Position numbers and translations under genes: made by a program. Positions 58,365-63,737 of a stretch of DNA of 64,000 bases are shown here, one piece after another. The notes beneath the pieces were generated by a model. It worked only from the letters and a program-made list of their open reading frames with translations. It ran no database searches and was not told where the DNA came from. Every line of letters begins with the position of its first letter. The stretch's first letter is position 1. Origin of the DNA: Klebsiella pneumoniae (lineage in GTDB: Bacteria > Pseudomonadota > Gammaproteobacteria > Eutrophobiales > Eutrophobiaceae); assembly GCA_945878555.1 (NCBI GenBank), contig CAMDWI010000009.1, positions 62,001 to 126,000 of the forward strand, given 5' to 3'.

Positions 58365-59795
58365 ATGAAGCTTCCTGATGTATCGCGGTTTATGCACGGA
58401 TTAAGTACCATGATGGCGTTACTGGTCATAAGCACTATGCCCGCATACGCGGATGAACTGGATGATCTGAAAAAGCAGATCGAAATTCTTGCCGGGAAGA
58501 TTGAAGAACTTGAAAAACAACGTGCCATCCAGCAGGCCGGGAATATCAGTTCAACAAACATTGCCTCTGACAATATCGAACAAAAACCGGTGGAAACTGA
58601 AATAACTCCACCACTTGCACCAAAAACAGCGGTAATTACGGCAGGTGATATCCCGGGATCATTCAAGATCCCCGATACAAATACCTCTTTCAGGATATAC
58701 GGTTTTGCGCAGGCAAATCTGATATATGACATGGCCGGCCGGCCGGCATCACGCAACGGTGATTCAGCATCAATTGCCTCCGCACCGTTAAACGACAGTC
58801 CCGAATACCGTATGCGGGGAGACGCACGTATTGGTGCGCGTGACTCCCGACTCGGCATAAGCACATTCACACCAACAGAATACGGGGACTTCCGGACGGT
58901 ATTAGAGGGTGACTTCAATACCTCACCTGCTGGCAAGAGTACGCGAGCAACGACCAGTCGTGCTTCGTTTTCCGTTCGTCATGCCTACGGCGAAATCGGA
59001 AATTTTCTGGCTGGCCAGACCTTCACGACCTACATGGACATTTCTGCGTTTACCGAAAAGCTCAATGGCAGCGGGCCTATCGGCAGGACCTTCATGCGTC
59101 AGGGTATGTTGCGTTACACGCATCGTATAGATGAGCATAGTCGATTTGCCATTGCGCTTGAGAACCCGCGCGGTGATTTTATTGATGCCGATGACGAGAC
59201 GCTGGATGACAGCGTGCCAGACCTGACGGCGCACTATCGCTACCAGACGGATCGCTGGCATATGCAGTTCAGCGGCGTTGTACGACGTCTGGGTATAGAT
59301 GACGGAGGACCAACCGGTGTCTACGGTGGAATAAACGACAATGCGACAGGCTGGGGTCTGCAGCATTCTACAGCCTTTACACTTGGTGCCAGCAAGGACC
59401 GTATTTCCTGGTATATCAATTTCGGTGACGGCCTGGGTCGCTACGCCGACTCCGGTGTGGATCAGGGAGCTTCCATCACCCGCGAGGGAACACTCGACAC
59501 CCAGTTTACCTATGGTGGTTTCATCTCCTACCAACACTGGTGGACGGAAACGCTACGCAGTAATATTGATCTTGGCATGATGCATCATGATCTTAACCCG
59601 CTCGAAGAAGCCTTGTTTCCGGATATTGAACGTGACAGTAACCGCCGGATACTTTCCAGTCATTCAAACATAATCTGGTCGCCTCTGGACCGCATTACGC
59701 TCGGTCTTGAATATATATGGGGTAAACGCAAGGTGCATGACGGGCGTGAGGGCGTCGTTCGACGCCTGCAGTTCACCTCCATCTACAATTTCTGA
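58365..59795 (+). CDS. DcaP-like outer-membrane porin, copy 1
   Basis: This 476-residue protein has a signal peptide ending near PAYADE, a short coiled coil (ELDDLKKQIEILAGKIEELEKQ, about 29-50), a linker, and a 16-strand-type barrel from about residue 98. The barrel start FKIPDTNTSFRIYGFAQANLIYDM and the terminal QFTSIYNF with C-terminal Phe fit the DcaP family of trimeric porins, which have a periplasmic coiled-coil stalk and favour negatively charged solutes such as dicarboxylates. It has no strong ribosome-binding site. Copy 2 starts 8 bp after its stop. Confidence 0.88.
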   Translation: MKLPDVSRFMHGLSTMMALLVISTMPAYADELDDLKKQIEILAGKIEELEKQRAIQQAGNISSTNIASDNIEQKPVETEITPPLAPKTAVITAGDIPGSFKIPDTNTSFRIYGFAQANLIYDMAGRPASRNGDSASIASAPLNDSPEYRMRGDARIGARDSRLGISTFTPTEYGDFRTVLEGDFNTSPAGKSTRATTSRASFSVRHAYGEIGNFLAGQTFTTYMDISAFTEKLNGSGPIGRTFMRQGMLRYTHRIDEHSRFAIALENPRGDFIDADDETLDDSVPDLTAHYRYQTDRWHMQFSGVVRRLGIDDGGPTGVYGGINDNATGWGLQHSTAFTLGASKDRISWYINFGDGLGRYADSGVDQGASITREGTLDTQFTYGGFISYQHWWTETLRSNIDLGMMHHDLNPLEEALFPDIERDSNRRILSSHSNIIWSPLDRITLGLEYIWGKRKVHDGREGVVRRLQFTSIYNF

Positions 59796-59803
59796 AACCC
59801 GCC

Positions 59804-61099
59804 ATGGTCAGAAAGGCATGTCTGGTTACATTTGTGCTTTCACTTGTTTCCAGCCCCTTGCCAGCGGATGAACTTGATGAGCTGAAACTGCAACTGGCTG
59901 ACCTGAAACGGCGACTGGAACAACTCGAACAACCGCAACCACAGGCGGCTGAAAGTGCAGAGCTGCCGGATAACGTTGTCACCTCTGGAGATGTACACGG
60001 TAGCTGGAAGATACCCGGGACCGACAGTTCGATGCGTTTAGGTGGATTCATACGTGCACACATGATCTATGATATCGGACCGCGACCCACGTCCAGCGGT
60101 GGTGATGTTGCCTCGATCCATACCGCGATTCTGGAAGGCACACCTGAATATCAAAACCGGGGCGACACCCGAATCGCCGGCAGGGATGCCCGTATCAATG
60201 TCGAGACCTACACGCCGACGGCATATGGCCAGATGCACACATTTATTCAGGCTGACTTCAAGGGTGACCCGGATAACAAGGGCAGCCGCGCAACGACCAG
60301 CCGCAGCACCTTTTCCATGCGCCATGCCTATGCTGAAGTGGGAAATTTTCTGGCAGGCATTACATATTCAAATTACCTGGATGCCACCGTATTCGGTGAC
60401 AAGGTCGATGCAACCGGACCCACCGGTCGCACCATGATCCGTCAGGGACAAATCCGATATACCCATCATCTGGATGACTACCGTGAATTTGCCATTGCCA
60501 TTGAAAACCCCCACGGTGATTTCGTTGACGCGGATGATGAGAATCTTGACGATGGGTATCCGGATTTCACCATGCGTTTTCGTCATGAAACCGACCGCTG
60601 GCATTACCAGTTCAGTGGTATGTTGCGCCGCATAGGAATTGACGATGGACTCGGCCTGGATGATACCGCTCTTTCCTGGGCACTGAATCACTCCGGACTG
60701 TTTATGTTTCCGGGTGACAGGGACCGTATCACCTGGTATCTCAATTTTGGTGATGGTATCGGACGCTACCTTGAAGGCGGCAAGGATCAGGGTGCATCAA
60801 TCACTCCGAACGGTAAACTGGATACCCAGTCTGGTTACGGCGGCTTCGTGACCTATAAACACTGGTGGACCCCGGAGCTGTCAACCAATCTGGACCTGGG
60901 CATAGGCTACTATGACCTGAATCCGGAAGAGGATGCACAGGCCAACGAACGCTTGTTGTCCAGTCATATCAATCTGATTTGGGTCCCGTTGGAACAGCTG
61001 GAACTGGGGCTGGAGTATGTCTGGGGCCATCGCCGGGTGCATGACGGCAGGGAGGGCGAGATTAGCCGGGTTCAGGTCAATTCAATTTTCATCTTCTAA
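59804..61099 (+). CDS. DcaP-like outer-membrane porin, copy 2
   Basis: This 431-residue paralogue has signal peptide ending near PLPADE, coiled coil ELDELKLQLADLKRRLEQLE, and a barrel of the same type ending VNSIFIF. Shared blocks with copy 1 include ENPRGDF/ENPHGDF, DADDE-LDD, RWH-QFSG-RR-GIDDG, KHWWT and VHDGREG. It lacks the longer linker of copy 1. With an 8-bp spacing and no evident ribosome-binding site, it is probably translated by coupling. Mixed trimers of the two copies are possible but unproven. Its 3' end overlaps the convergent gene at 61089-61391 by 11 bp. Confidence 0.88.
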   Translation: MVRKACLVTFVLSLVSSPLPADELDELKLQLADLKRRLEQLEQPQPQAAESAELPDNVVTSGDVHGSWKIPGTDSSMRLGGFIRAHMIYDIGPRPTSSGGDVASIHTAILEGTPEYQNRGDTRIAGRDARINVETYTPTAYGQMHTFIQADFKGDPDNKGSRATTSRSTFSMRHAYAEVGNFLAGITYSNYLDATVFGDKVDATGPTGRTMIRQGQIRYTHHLDDYREFAIAIENPHGDFVDADDENLDDGYPDFTMRFRHETDRWHYQFSGMLRRIGIDDGLGLDDTALSWALNHSGLFMFPGDRDRITWYLNFGDGIGRYLEGGKDQGASITPNGKLDTQSGYGGFVTYKHWWTPELSTNLDLGIGYYDLNPEEDAQANERLLSSHINLIWVPLEQLELGLEYVWGHRRVHDGREGEISRVQVNSIFIF

Positions 61100-61391
61100 A
61101 TGTCTGTTCCGAAATCCTGTCCAGCAACTCCATCTCCATCACCCACATACACAATAACAGTCGCTCGCCCGGCTCTATTGCAGCAATCATGGCTTGTTGG
61201 GCAACGGTGTCACCGCGTAACTTTTTCAGTCTGATAACTCCGGCGCTGATCGCCCCGGTCATTTTATCATCAAGATTCAGGTCCACCACATCCAGCAGGC
61301 TTGCCTGTTCAACAGTATCAAGACCAAATAATTCAACTAGTAACTGCTCATGCAGCATATCATCCCTGTCACTGTTCATAGCTGTATTCAC
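61089..61391 (-). CDS. Hypothetical 100-residue acidic-helical protein
   Basis: This minus-strand frame is convergent with porin copy 2 (11-bp overlap) and lies just beyond the terminator of the ThDP enzyme. The protein is Leu/Met/Asp/Glu-rich and probably helical, with no signal peptide, membrane segment or motif I recognise. It has a normal protein-like composition, unlike the Ser-rich opposite frame. Start is GTG 61391 (GAGG only 2 nt upstream) or ATG 61379. The ThDP terminator leaves it without an obvious promoter unless read-through occurs. Function unknown. Confidence 0.55.
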   Translation of the reverse strand: MNTAMNSDRDDMLHEQLLVELFGLDTVEQASLLDVVDLNLDDKMTGAISAGVIRLKKLRGDTVAQQAMIAAIEPGERLLLCMWVMEMELLDRISEQTFRR

Positions 61392-61478: not shown

Positions 61479-63377
61479 TCAGACCTTGCGGTCACGTTGC
61501 TCCGCCAGCGAGAATTTCTGGTAATTGGTCACTTCTGCACCAATACCCAGACGACGGGTATGCACGTCCAGCATGAAGGGTCTACCCTCGGCCAGTGTGC
61601 GCAACCCGGTACGAATCGCATCTTTCAGCTGATCTGAATTCGTGACGACCGCACCGGGAATATTATAGGCGGCAGCCAGCTTGGTGAAATCGACTATCGG
61701 ATTGCCCAGATAGGAAATGTAGTCACGGTTGGCCTGGCCGGCGGGGCCATTCCGTCCCATCATCTGCCAGCGCGTCTCTTCATAGGTATGGTTGTTGAAT
61801 ATCACGGTCATGACCGGAATGTCGTAACGAGACATCGTCCACAACGAATCGGTCTGTCCAAACAGAAAACCGCCATCTCCCTGCATTGAAATGACCTGGC
61901 GGTTCGGCAGGGCCAGTTTCACACCAACCGAGGCACCGGTACCCCATCCGAGCGCACGCCCTTCGGTACGGCCGATTTTCAACATCGCGTCATCGGCAAA
62001 CGGGAACATACCCAGCGTCTTGTATTCGGTCCCCTGCTCGGCGACGATAACGGCGTCTTTCTCCATCTGCTGTCGCAATTCATACACGAGGGCCGGCCAT
62101 GGCACAGGTGAGCCCTTGCTCATACGCCCTGCCGCCAGTCTGGCCGCCATGACGCCTTTAGTATGGCCGGCAACGATACGTCGGCGTTCCTCGGTCAGTT
62201 TTTTCAATTGCGCCGGGGTTGCCAGCGTTTTCACGGCGGCCACCAGATCTTTTGCCACCTCGGCCAGGTTACCCACCAGTGCAGCCACCAATGGCGCATT
62301 CCTGCCTATTGTATTCTCATCAACACTGGCATGAATCTCACGTATGGCATTGTTACGACCACCATAACCATTACGACGTGTGCGGGCCCCGAAATTAATA
62401 TACAGGTCTATCGGTTTTGGATTGCGTTGCAGATAGCCCGCAACCTGGTCATCCTCACCAACCCAGAGCGGGTGCGTGTTCGGGAAGTCAACTGTAATGC
62501 TGCGATACTGAATCACGGGAATGGCAAGTAATTCACATAATTCGACCAGTGCTGCCCTGGCATTGCAGTGCCCAACCTCGGGACCGACCTCCATCAACGG
62601 AGAATCTGCACTGAGCAGTACCTTCGCCGCCCGGACCACTTCATCCGCATCCGGCCGGATACTCATCGGCGTATTCAGGGCCTCCCGTGAGTAGATCGTG
62701 CCAGTCACCTCCTTGTACATCAGATCGCGCGGTGTCCTGATATAGGTCGGGCCACCCGGTAATACACTGGCCACCTTGTAGGCCTTGCGCACCCATTCAG
62801 ACAGGCGCTCGGGCTGGTTCGCGGTCCAGGTCCACTTGGTATAAAAGCGGGCGGCTTCTTCCCAGTTATCAATGTCCTCGTGACTGTCCGTACCTTCGGC
62901 GGTTGAATCAGCATGATCGCTCATAATGACCAGCGGCGTCCGGTCTTTCATTGAGTTGTACATATTCGAGGTCGAGTGTGGCAGACCTACCCGGCTGTAA
63001 AAACCGAATGCCGGTTTGCCGGTCACCTTGGCATAACCATCGGCCATTGCCACCACTTGTCCTTCCTGGGTCGCCTGGATCAGCTGGATCTGCGGACGGC
63101 TGACCAGCGCATCAACTATCGGTCCGAGACCGGAACCGTTGGAACAAAAAAGGTAAGGTGTACCGGTCTCGGCCATCTGTTCGAGGATCAAATCGCCGCC
63201 GGTACCGGTGATTGTACGTACATATTCCTTTGGCAATTCTCCGCCGGGAATAAATGGTTCGACCGCGGCCATCGCCGATTTAGCCGCCGTCATAGTGTAA
63301 CTTGCGGCTGCCATACCGCTGAGAAATCCACGCCGTGAAATCCTGGCATTTATAAGGTCTTTGACTAGTTCACGCAT
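61479..63377 (-). CDS. Tat-exported thiamine-diphosphate-dependent enzyme (acetolactate synthase / benzoylformate decarboxylase family)
   Basis: This 632-residue protein has a twin-arginine signal: SRRGFLSG at residues 14-21, a hydrophobic stretch and a cleavage-like SAMAAVE near 35-40. It then shows the full three-domain ThDP plan: pyrimidine-binding domain (about 53-225) with cofactor-activating Glu E105 in QATQEGQVVAMADGYAKVTGKP, a central domain (about 245-380), and the diphosphate domain (about 425-615) with GDG at 500-502, 25 residues, then NN at 528-529. Related enzymes decarboxylate or ligate 2-oxo acids in the cytoplasm; export of a folded holoenzyme is unusual. The upstream partner is a c-type cytochrome. 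Substrate unknown. AGGGGG ribosome-binding site. Confidence 0.9.
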   Translation of the reverse strand: MRELVKDLINARISRRGFLSGMAAASYTMTAAKSAMAAVEPFIPGGELPKEYVRTITGTGGDLILEQMAETGTPYLFCSNGSGLGPIVDALVSRPQIQLIQATQEGQVVAMADGYAKVTGKPAFGFYSRVGLPHSTSNMYNSMKDRTPLVIMSDHADSTAEGTDSHEDIDNWEEAARFYTKWTWTANQPERLSEWVRKAYKVASVLPGGPTYIRTPRDLMYKEVTGTIYSREALNTPMSIRPDADEVVRAAKVLLSADSPLMEVGPEVGHCNARAALVELCELLAIPVIQYRSITVDFPNTHPLWVGEDDQVAGYLQRNPKPIDLYINFGARTRRNGYGGRNNAIREIHASVDENTIGRNAPLVAALVGNLAEVAKDLVAAVKTLATPAQLKKLTEERRRIVAGHTKGVMAARLAAGRMSKGSPVPWPALVYELRQQMEKDAVIVAEQGTEYKTLGMFPFADDAMLKIGRTEGRALGWGTGASVGVKLALPNRQVISMQGDGGFLFGQTDSLWTMSRYDIPVMTVIFNNHTYEETRWQMMGRNGPAGQANRDYISYLGNPIVDFTKLAAAYNIPGAVVTNSDQLKDAIRTGLRTLAEGRPFMLDVHTRRLGIGAEVTNYQKFSLAEQRDRKV

Positions 63378-63440
63378 ATTGCGCCCCCTGCATAAAATAA
63401 TTTATAAAAAAACACAGATGAAGTTTTGCCTGTGTAGATA

Positions 63441-63737
63441 TCAGTTCTCTTTCACAGCAAAATTATCGATCAGATATTTCTTCACAGTCTCCATTTCGCT
63501 TTCGTGGATTGCCGCACCCCTGGCAACCATGTCATAAAAATAGGTTTCCCATTCCTCTGCAGTCAGCTTCTTGTGCGAGTTGGTGATATTATCCAGGCCA
63601 TGGCAGGCAGTGCAGGCAGTCAATATCTTGTCCATGCCCTCACCCGCCGGCAGTCCCTGAGACTGGCCAGCAACGGGTAGTACGATTCCTGTTACCATCA
63701 GCAGGACACGTAAATCCCGCCAGATTATTTTTTTCAT
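63441..63737 (-). CDS. Small periplasmic c-type cytochrome
   Basis: This 98-residue precursor has a signal peptide MKKIIWRDLRVLLMVTGIVL ending near AGQSQG, one haem-binding CTACH at residues 42-46 and candidate methionine ligands M70 (YDMVARGA) or M82. The mature domain of about 70 residues resembles the single-haem electron-transfer subunits that accompany periplasmic dehydrogenases. The frame extends to 63812, but ATG 63737 begins a proper signal peptide and follows GGGGGC. It ends 63 bp before the Tat-ThDP enzyme on the same strand, so the two form a probable operon. Confidence 0.9.
   Translation of the reverse strand: MKKIIWRDLRVLLMVTGIVLPVAGQSQGLPAGEGMDKILTACTACHGLDNITNSHKKLTAEEWETYFYDMVARGAAIHESEMETVKKYLIDNFAVKEN

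Follow-up and report, generated by a model that had tools for sequence, protein, structure and literature searches.

A Tat-type ThDP enzyme paired with a monohaem cytochrome c: a probable periplasmic dehydrogenase

The 64,000-nucleotide stretch of genomic DNA analysed here (the window) encodes, in a single two-gene unit, a POX-family ThDP-dependent enzyme with a Tat-type signal and a secreted monohaem cytochrome c, and this pairing is conserved across phyla. We consider it probable that the pair functions as a periplasmic ThDP dehydrogenase that uses its cytochrome c as electron acceptor. A more specific reading, which we advance tentatively as one possible account, is that a flavin-free, Tat-exported ThDP enzyme transfers single electrons directly to a dedicated periplasmic cytochrome c, as a new respiratory class that evolved at least two times with different cytochromes. 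The unit comprises the following features.

63441..63737, minus strand: window cytochrome, a secreted monohaem cytochrome c of SorB/QHNDH type, 98 aa, first gene of the pair
63600..63614, minus strand: haem-binding CTACH, residues 42-46 of the window cytochrome
61479..63377, minus strand: window enzyme, POX-family, ThDP-dependent, with Tat-type signal, 632 aa, ATG start, TPP_enzyme N/M/C
63321..63338, minus strand: Tat twin-arginine motif SRRGFL, residues 14-19 of the window enzyme, with conserved RR
63063..63065, minus strand: codon of catalytic Glu105 (in TQEGQ) of the window enzyme
61791..61880, minus strand: ThDP/Mg motif GDG-X25-NN, residues 500-529 of the window enzyme
61451-61423, minus strand: intrinsic terminator closing the two-gene unit, a 12-pair stem then TTTTTATTTC

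The first-pass annotation, made from the letters alone, had described a complete ThDP enzyme behind a Tat signal, and this description is borne out. The TPP_enzyme N, M and C domains each score above their Pfam cut-offs, Glu105 is unchanged in all aligned homologues whose sequence spans it, and GDG begins at residue 500 and NN at residue 528, with a spacing of exactly 25. The window enzyme thus has all of the hallmarks of the POX-type ThDP superfamily (TPP N/M/C, a catalytic Glu and GDG-X(25-30)-NN), and its twin-arginine motif, together with the conservation of that motif, marks it at the sequence level as a Tat substrate. It is under strong purifying selection, with dN/dS of 0.034-0.036 against the same-genus genomes G009 and G010. 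The closest sequences among solved structures are benzoylformate decarboxylases (BFDC; E ~1e-34), and no NCBIfam equivalog cut-off is reached: the window enzyme scores 185 bits against a cut-off of 493 for the benzoylformate decarboxylase model NF005485 and 164 bits against 538 for the acetolactate synthase model TIGR00118, and we reject both assignments. Identity as a benzoylformate decarboxylase is further rejected on Tyr127, which occupies the position of BFDC His70 and is Tyr or Phe in close relatives. In plasmid records, the matches were all to ordinary ThDP enzymes, at no more than 25-28%.

The upstream gene is, as had been proposed, that of a secreted single-haem cytochrome, which carries a Sec-type signal and a single CTACH. 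In Pfam its match falls below the cut-off (Cytochrome_CBB3, E 0.016), a profile built from its own family detects it clearly, and the NCBIfam SorB model matches it clearly (1.3e-7), yet at 31.6 bits against an equivalog cut-off of 93, so that we assign it to the same family and reject SorB itself. Identity with the SorAB system is likewise rejected, since the molybdenum subunit SorA is absent beside the window cytochrome, whose neighbour is a ThDP enzyme. Across the aligned partner cytochromes, all 13 of which match the SorB model (best 8.6e-17), there is a common CXXCH, an invariant Trp63, Gly74 and Tyr88-Leu89, as well as Met70, the presumed axial ligand, which is invariant across the family alignment. 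When a profile of these partners is compared with solved structures, quinohemoprotein amine dehydrogenase (QHNDH, 2.2e-8) and SorB, the haem subunit of sulfite dehydrogenase (1.7e-7), come out on top. Membership in this family, whose haem subunits take electrons from periplasmic dehydrogenases, points to a role for the window cytochrome as an electron-acceptor subunit. Selection on it is moderate (dN/dS 0.15-0.18 against G009 and G010). Several partner cytochromes carry additional domains (L010:9827-10414, L012:1609-2124 and L100:5414-5980); one is fused to a beta-lactamase-superfamily domain (L090:4745-5740), and helix-hairpin-helix domains are fused in three members of the alignment. Among the frames examined, we find no natural fusion of a ThDP enzyme with a cytochrome.

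A gap of 63 bp separates the cytochrome gene from the enzyme gene on the same strand, and the terminator 3' of the pair is the best-scoring in its region, in keeping with the two-gene unit and strong terminator first described. Immediately beyond the terminator lies a gene for a 100-aa protein with no Pfam match (window 61089-61391, minus strand); in G009, too, the pair is followed by such a protein, of 90 aa (L084:7998-8270). Two DcaP-type outer-membrane porin genes in tandem (window 58365-59795 and 59804-61099, plus strand) converge on the pair, and a DcaP-type-like gene adjoins the pair in G009 too.

The first-pass annotation had staked its reading on retention of both the Tat signal and the cytochrome neighbour in homologues, and both are retained. 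We compared 56 loci of the window enzyme's lineage (lineage 1). Wherever the N-terminus is intact (53/53 homologues), the twin arginine is present, and the catalytic Glu and GDG motif persist in all homologues that cover them. A cytochrome gene adjoins the enzyme gene in all 12 close relatives (at least 57% identity; Gammaproteobacteria and Acidobacteriota), sometimes upstream and sometimes downstream, as in the Acidobacteriota loci L010 (Luteitalea sp.) and L012 (Candidatus Sulfopaludibacter sp.), where it lies downstream rather than upstream. The source genome has a second copy, 59% identical to the window enzyme and likewise preceded by a cytochrome; the pair is present in each of the same-genus genomes G007-G010, and L007 encodes an enzyme 95% identical to that of the window. 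Beyond these the enzyme is rare: homologues occur in 2 of 369 sampled genomes of the class besides the source genome, and 398 sampled genomes of the phylum contained none apart from the source genome's own.

Counted over the 56 loci, there are 28 same-strand CXXCH frames within 200 bp of the enzyme gene (21 kb) versus 8 at 0.2-6 kb (513 kb); frame calls in GC-rich loci are mechanical, and a few of the frames in such loci may be spurious. On the opposite strand, no CXXCH frame lies directly beside the enzyme gene. The IlvB-type ThDP enzymes that these genomes also encode, which served as a control, have neither a cytochrome neighbour (0/26) nor a Tat signal (0). Moreover, distances among the enzymes are correlated with those among their cytochromes (r 0.76 for 16 pairs, 0.82 in the core), and 0 of 5000 permutations in each case reached such values. 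Pairing is less general than export: at 30 of the 56 loci no cytochrome gene adjoins the enzyme gene, yet every intact one has the Tat signal, and because roughly half of the remoter Tat-ThDP homologues stand without a cytochrome alongside, export alone does not imply the proposed function. One Acidobacteriota Tat-ThDP group keeps the BFDC-type His with no cytochrome alongside (L058-L061, L064-L074, L079, L102, L104 and L108), and none of the 19 tree members that keep this His has an adjacent cytochrome. The enzymes of this group may act in the periplasm as non-oxidative decarboxylases, in itself an uncommon arrangement.

A second, distant lineage in the same genus is represented by a third ThDP enzyme from the source genome (L003 / L080:5790-8137, C11), only 27% identical to the window enzyme. 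Its N-terminus likewise carries a twin arginine, and the gene directly after it encodes a cytochrome c from another family. With its relatives (L149-L159), the family includes nine lineage-2 loci, one of which has lost its N-terminus to a contig end, and a cytochrome gene lies a few bases after each. These cytochromes are c550/CBB3-like, and the SorB model does not match them. The two nearest Tat-less relatives of lineage 2 have no cytochrome; in the tree, lineage 2 groups with such Tat-less, cytochrome-less relatives, and the AU test rejects a single origin of both Tat lineages (p 7.7e-6). Because lineage 2 is not sister to lineage 1, export and cytochrome pairing seem to have originated jointly on at least two occasions. 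In G008, a single cluster of same-strand genes surrounding a TonB-type receptor (L081:429-8269) holds both types of pair, and upstream lie SurA-like and repeated amidohydrolase genes.

POX-family ThDP enzymes are, to our knowledge, cytoplasmic catalysts. BFDC is cytoplasmic and non-oxidative, pyruvate oxidase and pyruvate:quinone oxidoreductase (POX and PoxB) are cytoplasmic, FAD-dependent enzymes with O2 or quinone as acceptor, and cyclohexane-1,2-dione hydrolase is cytoplasmic and oxidises its product with NAD+. The window enzyme resembles BFDC (MdlC; PDB 1BFD, 6A50) in its three TPP domains, catalytic Glu and GDG-NN motif, but differs in its Tat signal, in Tyr127 for His70 and in its cytochrome partner. 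POX and PoxB oxidise the enamine, as we propose for the window enzyme, but have neither a Tat signal nor a cytochrome c partner; the same is true of cyclohexane-1,2-dione hydrolase (PDB 2PGN), a POX-family ThDP enzyme among the window enzyme's matches. The cytochrome has parallels elsewhere. The sulfite dehydrogenase SorAB (PDB 2BLF), a permanent heterodimer (PMC4760952), joins a periplasmic catalytic subunit to a small monohaem cytochrome of the window cytochrome's family, but its catalytic subunit is a molybdoenzyme rather than a ThDP enzyme. In quinohemoprotein amine dehydrogenase (PDB 1JJU, 1JMX), a haem domain of the same family is fed by a periplasmic dehydrogenase, but there the alpha subunit has two haems, the cofactor is CTQ and the catalytic chemistry is unrelated.

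After decarboxylation, the ThDP carbanion/enamine is protonated (as in PDC and BFDC), ligated (AHAS) or oxidised (POX). The periplasm has no NAD pool, so any oxidation in that compartment requires a quinone, flavin or cytochrome as acceptor. In the mechanism that we propose, the ThDP enzyme would fold and load ThDP/Mg in the cytoplasm before export by Tat. Once in the periplasm, it would bind a carbonyl substrate, with a 2-oxo acid the likeliest and an aldehyde or alpha-diketone possible, and decarboxylate or cleave it to give the ThDP-bound carbanion/enamine. Two electrons would pass from this enamine, in single steps, to the monohaem cytochrome c, which could hand them on to the respiratory chain, and hydrolysis of the acyl-ThDP would release a carboxylic acid. 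The source genome encodes TatC and three COX1-type oxidases. Of the periplasmic enzyme-cytochrome reading with which the analysis began, the pairing and the export signal stand firmly; oxidation, an enzyme-cytochrome complex, flavin-free ThDP-to-haem transfer and the class of substrate are what we infer. An AlphaFold model built from seven sequences (pLDDT 55, pTM 0.42) is too poor to locate a docking site or cofactor pocket.

Both residues that usually protonate the carbanion are replaced in the window enzyme: Thr535 stands in place of the PDC/HACL Glu (PMC13327070, Table 1) and Tyr127 in place of BFDC His70. POX also has no carbanion-protonating Glu (I480; PMC13327070). In lineage 1, both protonating residues are absent from 24 of 26 cytochrome-paired enzymes versus 4 of 28 unpaired enzymes (Fisher 3.7e-9), a contrast that comes down to just one or two changes in the phylogeny; in lineage 2, moreover, the alignment shows both residues. 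We therefore reject loss of these residues as an independent marker of oxidative function, and take it in the cytochrome-paired enzymes as no more than a hint of oxidation.

Genomic context bears on both partners. Four further SorB-type cytochrome domains occur in the source genome (L145:4460-4828, L146:3900-4208, L147:2612-3979 and L148:3122-4957); those of L145 and L146 adjoin metallo-beta-lactamase-type or amidohydrolase genes, not known dehydrogenases, so adjacency alone is no proof of electron transfer. The surroundings of the more distant pairs include further oxidoreductases of FAD or GMC type and, at L093, a flavoprotein with a CXXCH motif. Paralogue group B has as neighbours an aromatic-ring hydroxylase, a cupin, a class II aldolase and a PQQ dehydrogenase, and other paralogues lie near amidohydrolases; as a clue to substrate, the aromatic-type catabolic genes near group B are suggestive only.

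Other readings of the pair deserve consideration. The exported ThDP enzyme could be a non-oxidative decarboxylase or carboligase, with the cytochrome serving another periplasmic dehydrogenase of the pathway, for example an aldehyde-oxidising one. The benzoylformate decarboxylases as nearest solved structures, the His-keeping Tat-ThDP relatives without a cytochrome, which may be plain decarboxylases, and the amidohydrolase and metallo-beta-lactamase-type neighbours of other SorB-type cytochromes in the source genome are consistent with such an arrangement. We nevertheless judge it unlikely, as the unit in the window and in most close relatives consists of enzyme and cytochrome only, with no intervening dehydrogenase, and as the pairing has outlived a change in gene order and arose again in lineage 2 with another cytochrome family. 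It is more doubtful still that the two genes specify an enzyme with FAD, like pyruvate oxidase or PoxB, in which electrons would pass from ThDP through FAD to cytochrome c. The POX-family fold would allow for this, and the window enzyme retains, at residues 330-332, the GAR of acetolactate synthase. By contrast, relatives have GTR, GAK or GNK at this site, the GMLGMHG stretch of the source genome's acetolactate synthase is missing from the window enzyme, and its central domain, by sequence comparison, best matches FAD-free BFDC rather than the FAD enzymes, a likeness that would favour direct ThDP-to-haem transfer.

That the genes encode two unrelated secreted proteins, neighbours by chance or merely by history, seems to us highly improbable. 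Some distant homologues do have no cytochrome neighbour, but the strand-biased enrichment, the mirror-tree signal, conservation across phyla in both gene orders, lineage 2 and the absence of cytochrome neighbours in the IlvB-type control all argue otherwise, and conservation together with the dN/dS values excludes chance.

In the literature searched, which did not extend to most subscription journals, we found no description of a design that combines a ThDP enzyme, Tat export or a periplasmic location, and a cytochrome c. The window pair, in a freshwater bacterium, suggests an undescribed oxidation of carbon compounds outside the inner membrane. The exported-type ThDP family occurs in 32 of the 297 sampled genomes of Acidobacteriota, often in multiple copies and up to at least four in a genome, so the activity may be common in that phylum. 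If the proposed periplasmic ThDP dehydrogenase is real, 2-oxo acids, aldehydes or diketones would be oxidised without uptake and without NAD, and an electron path from a ThDP radical to haem would be open to study.
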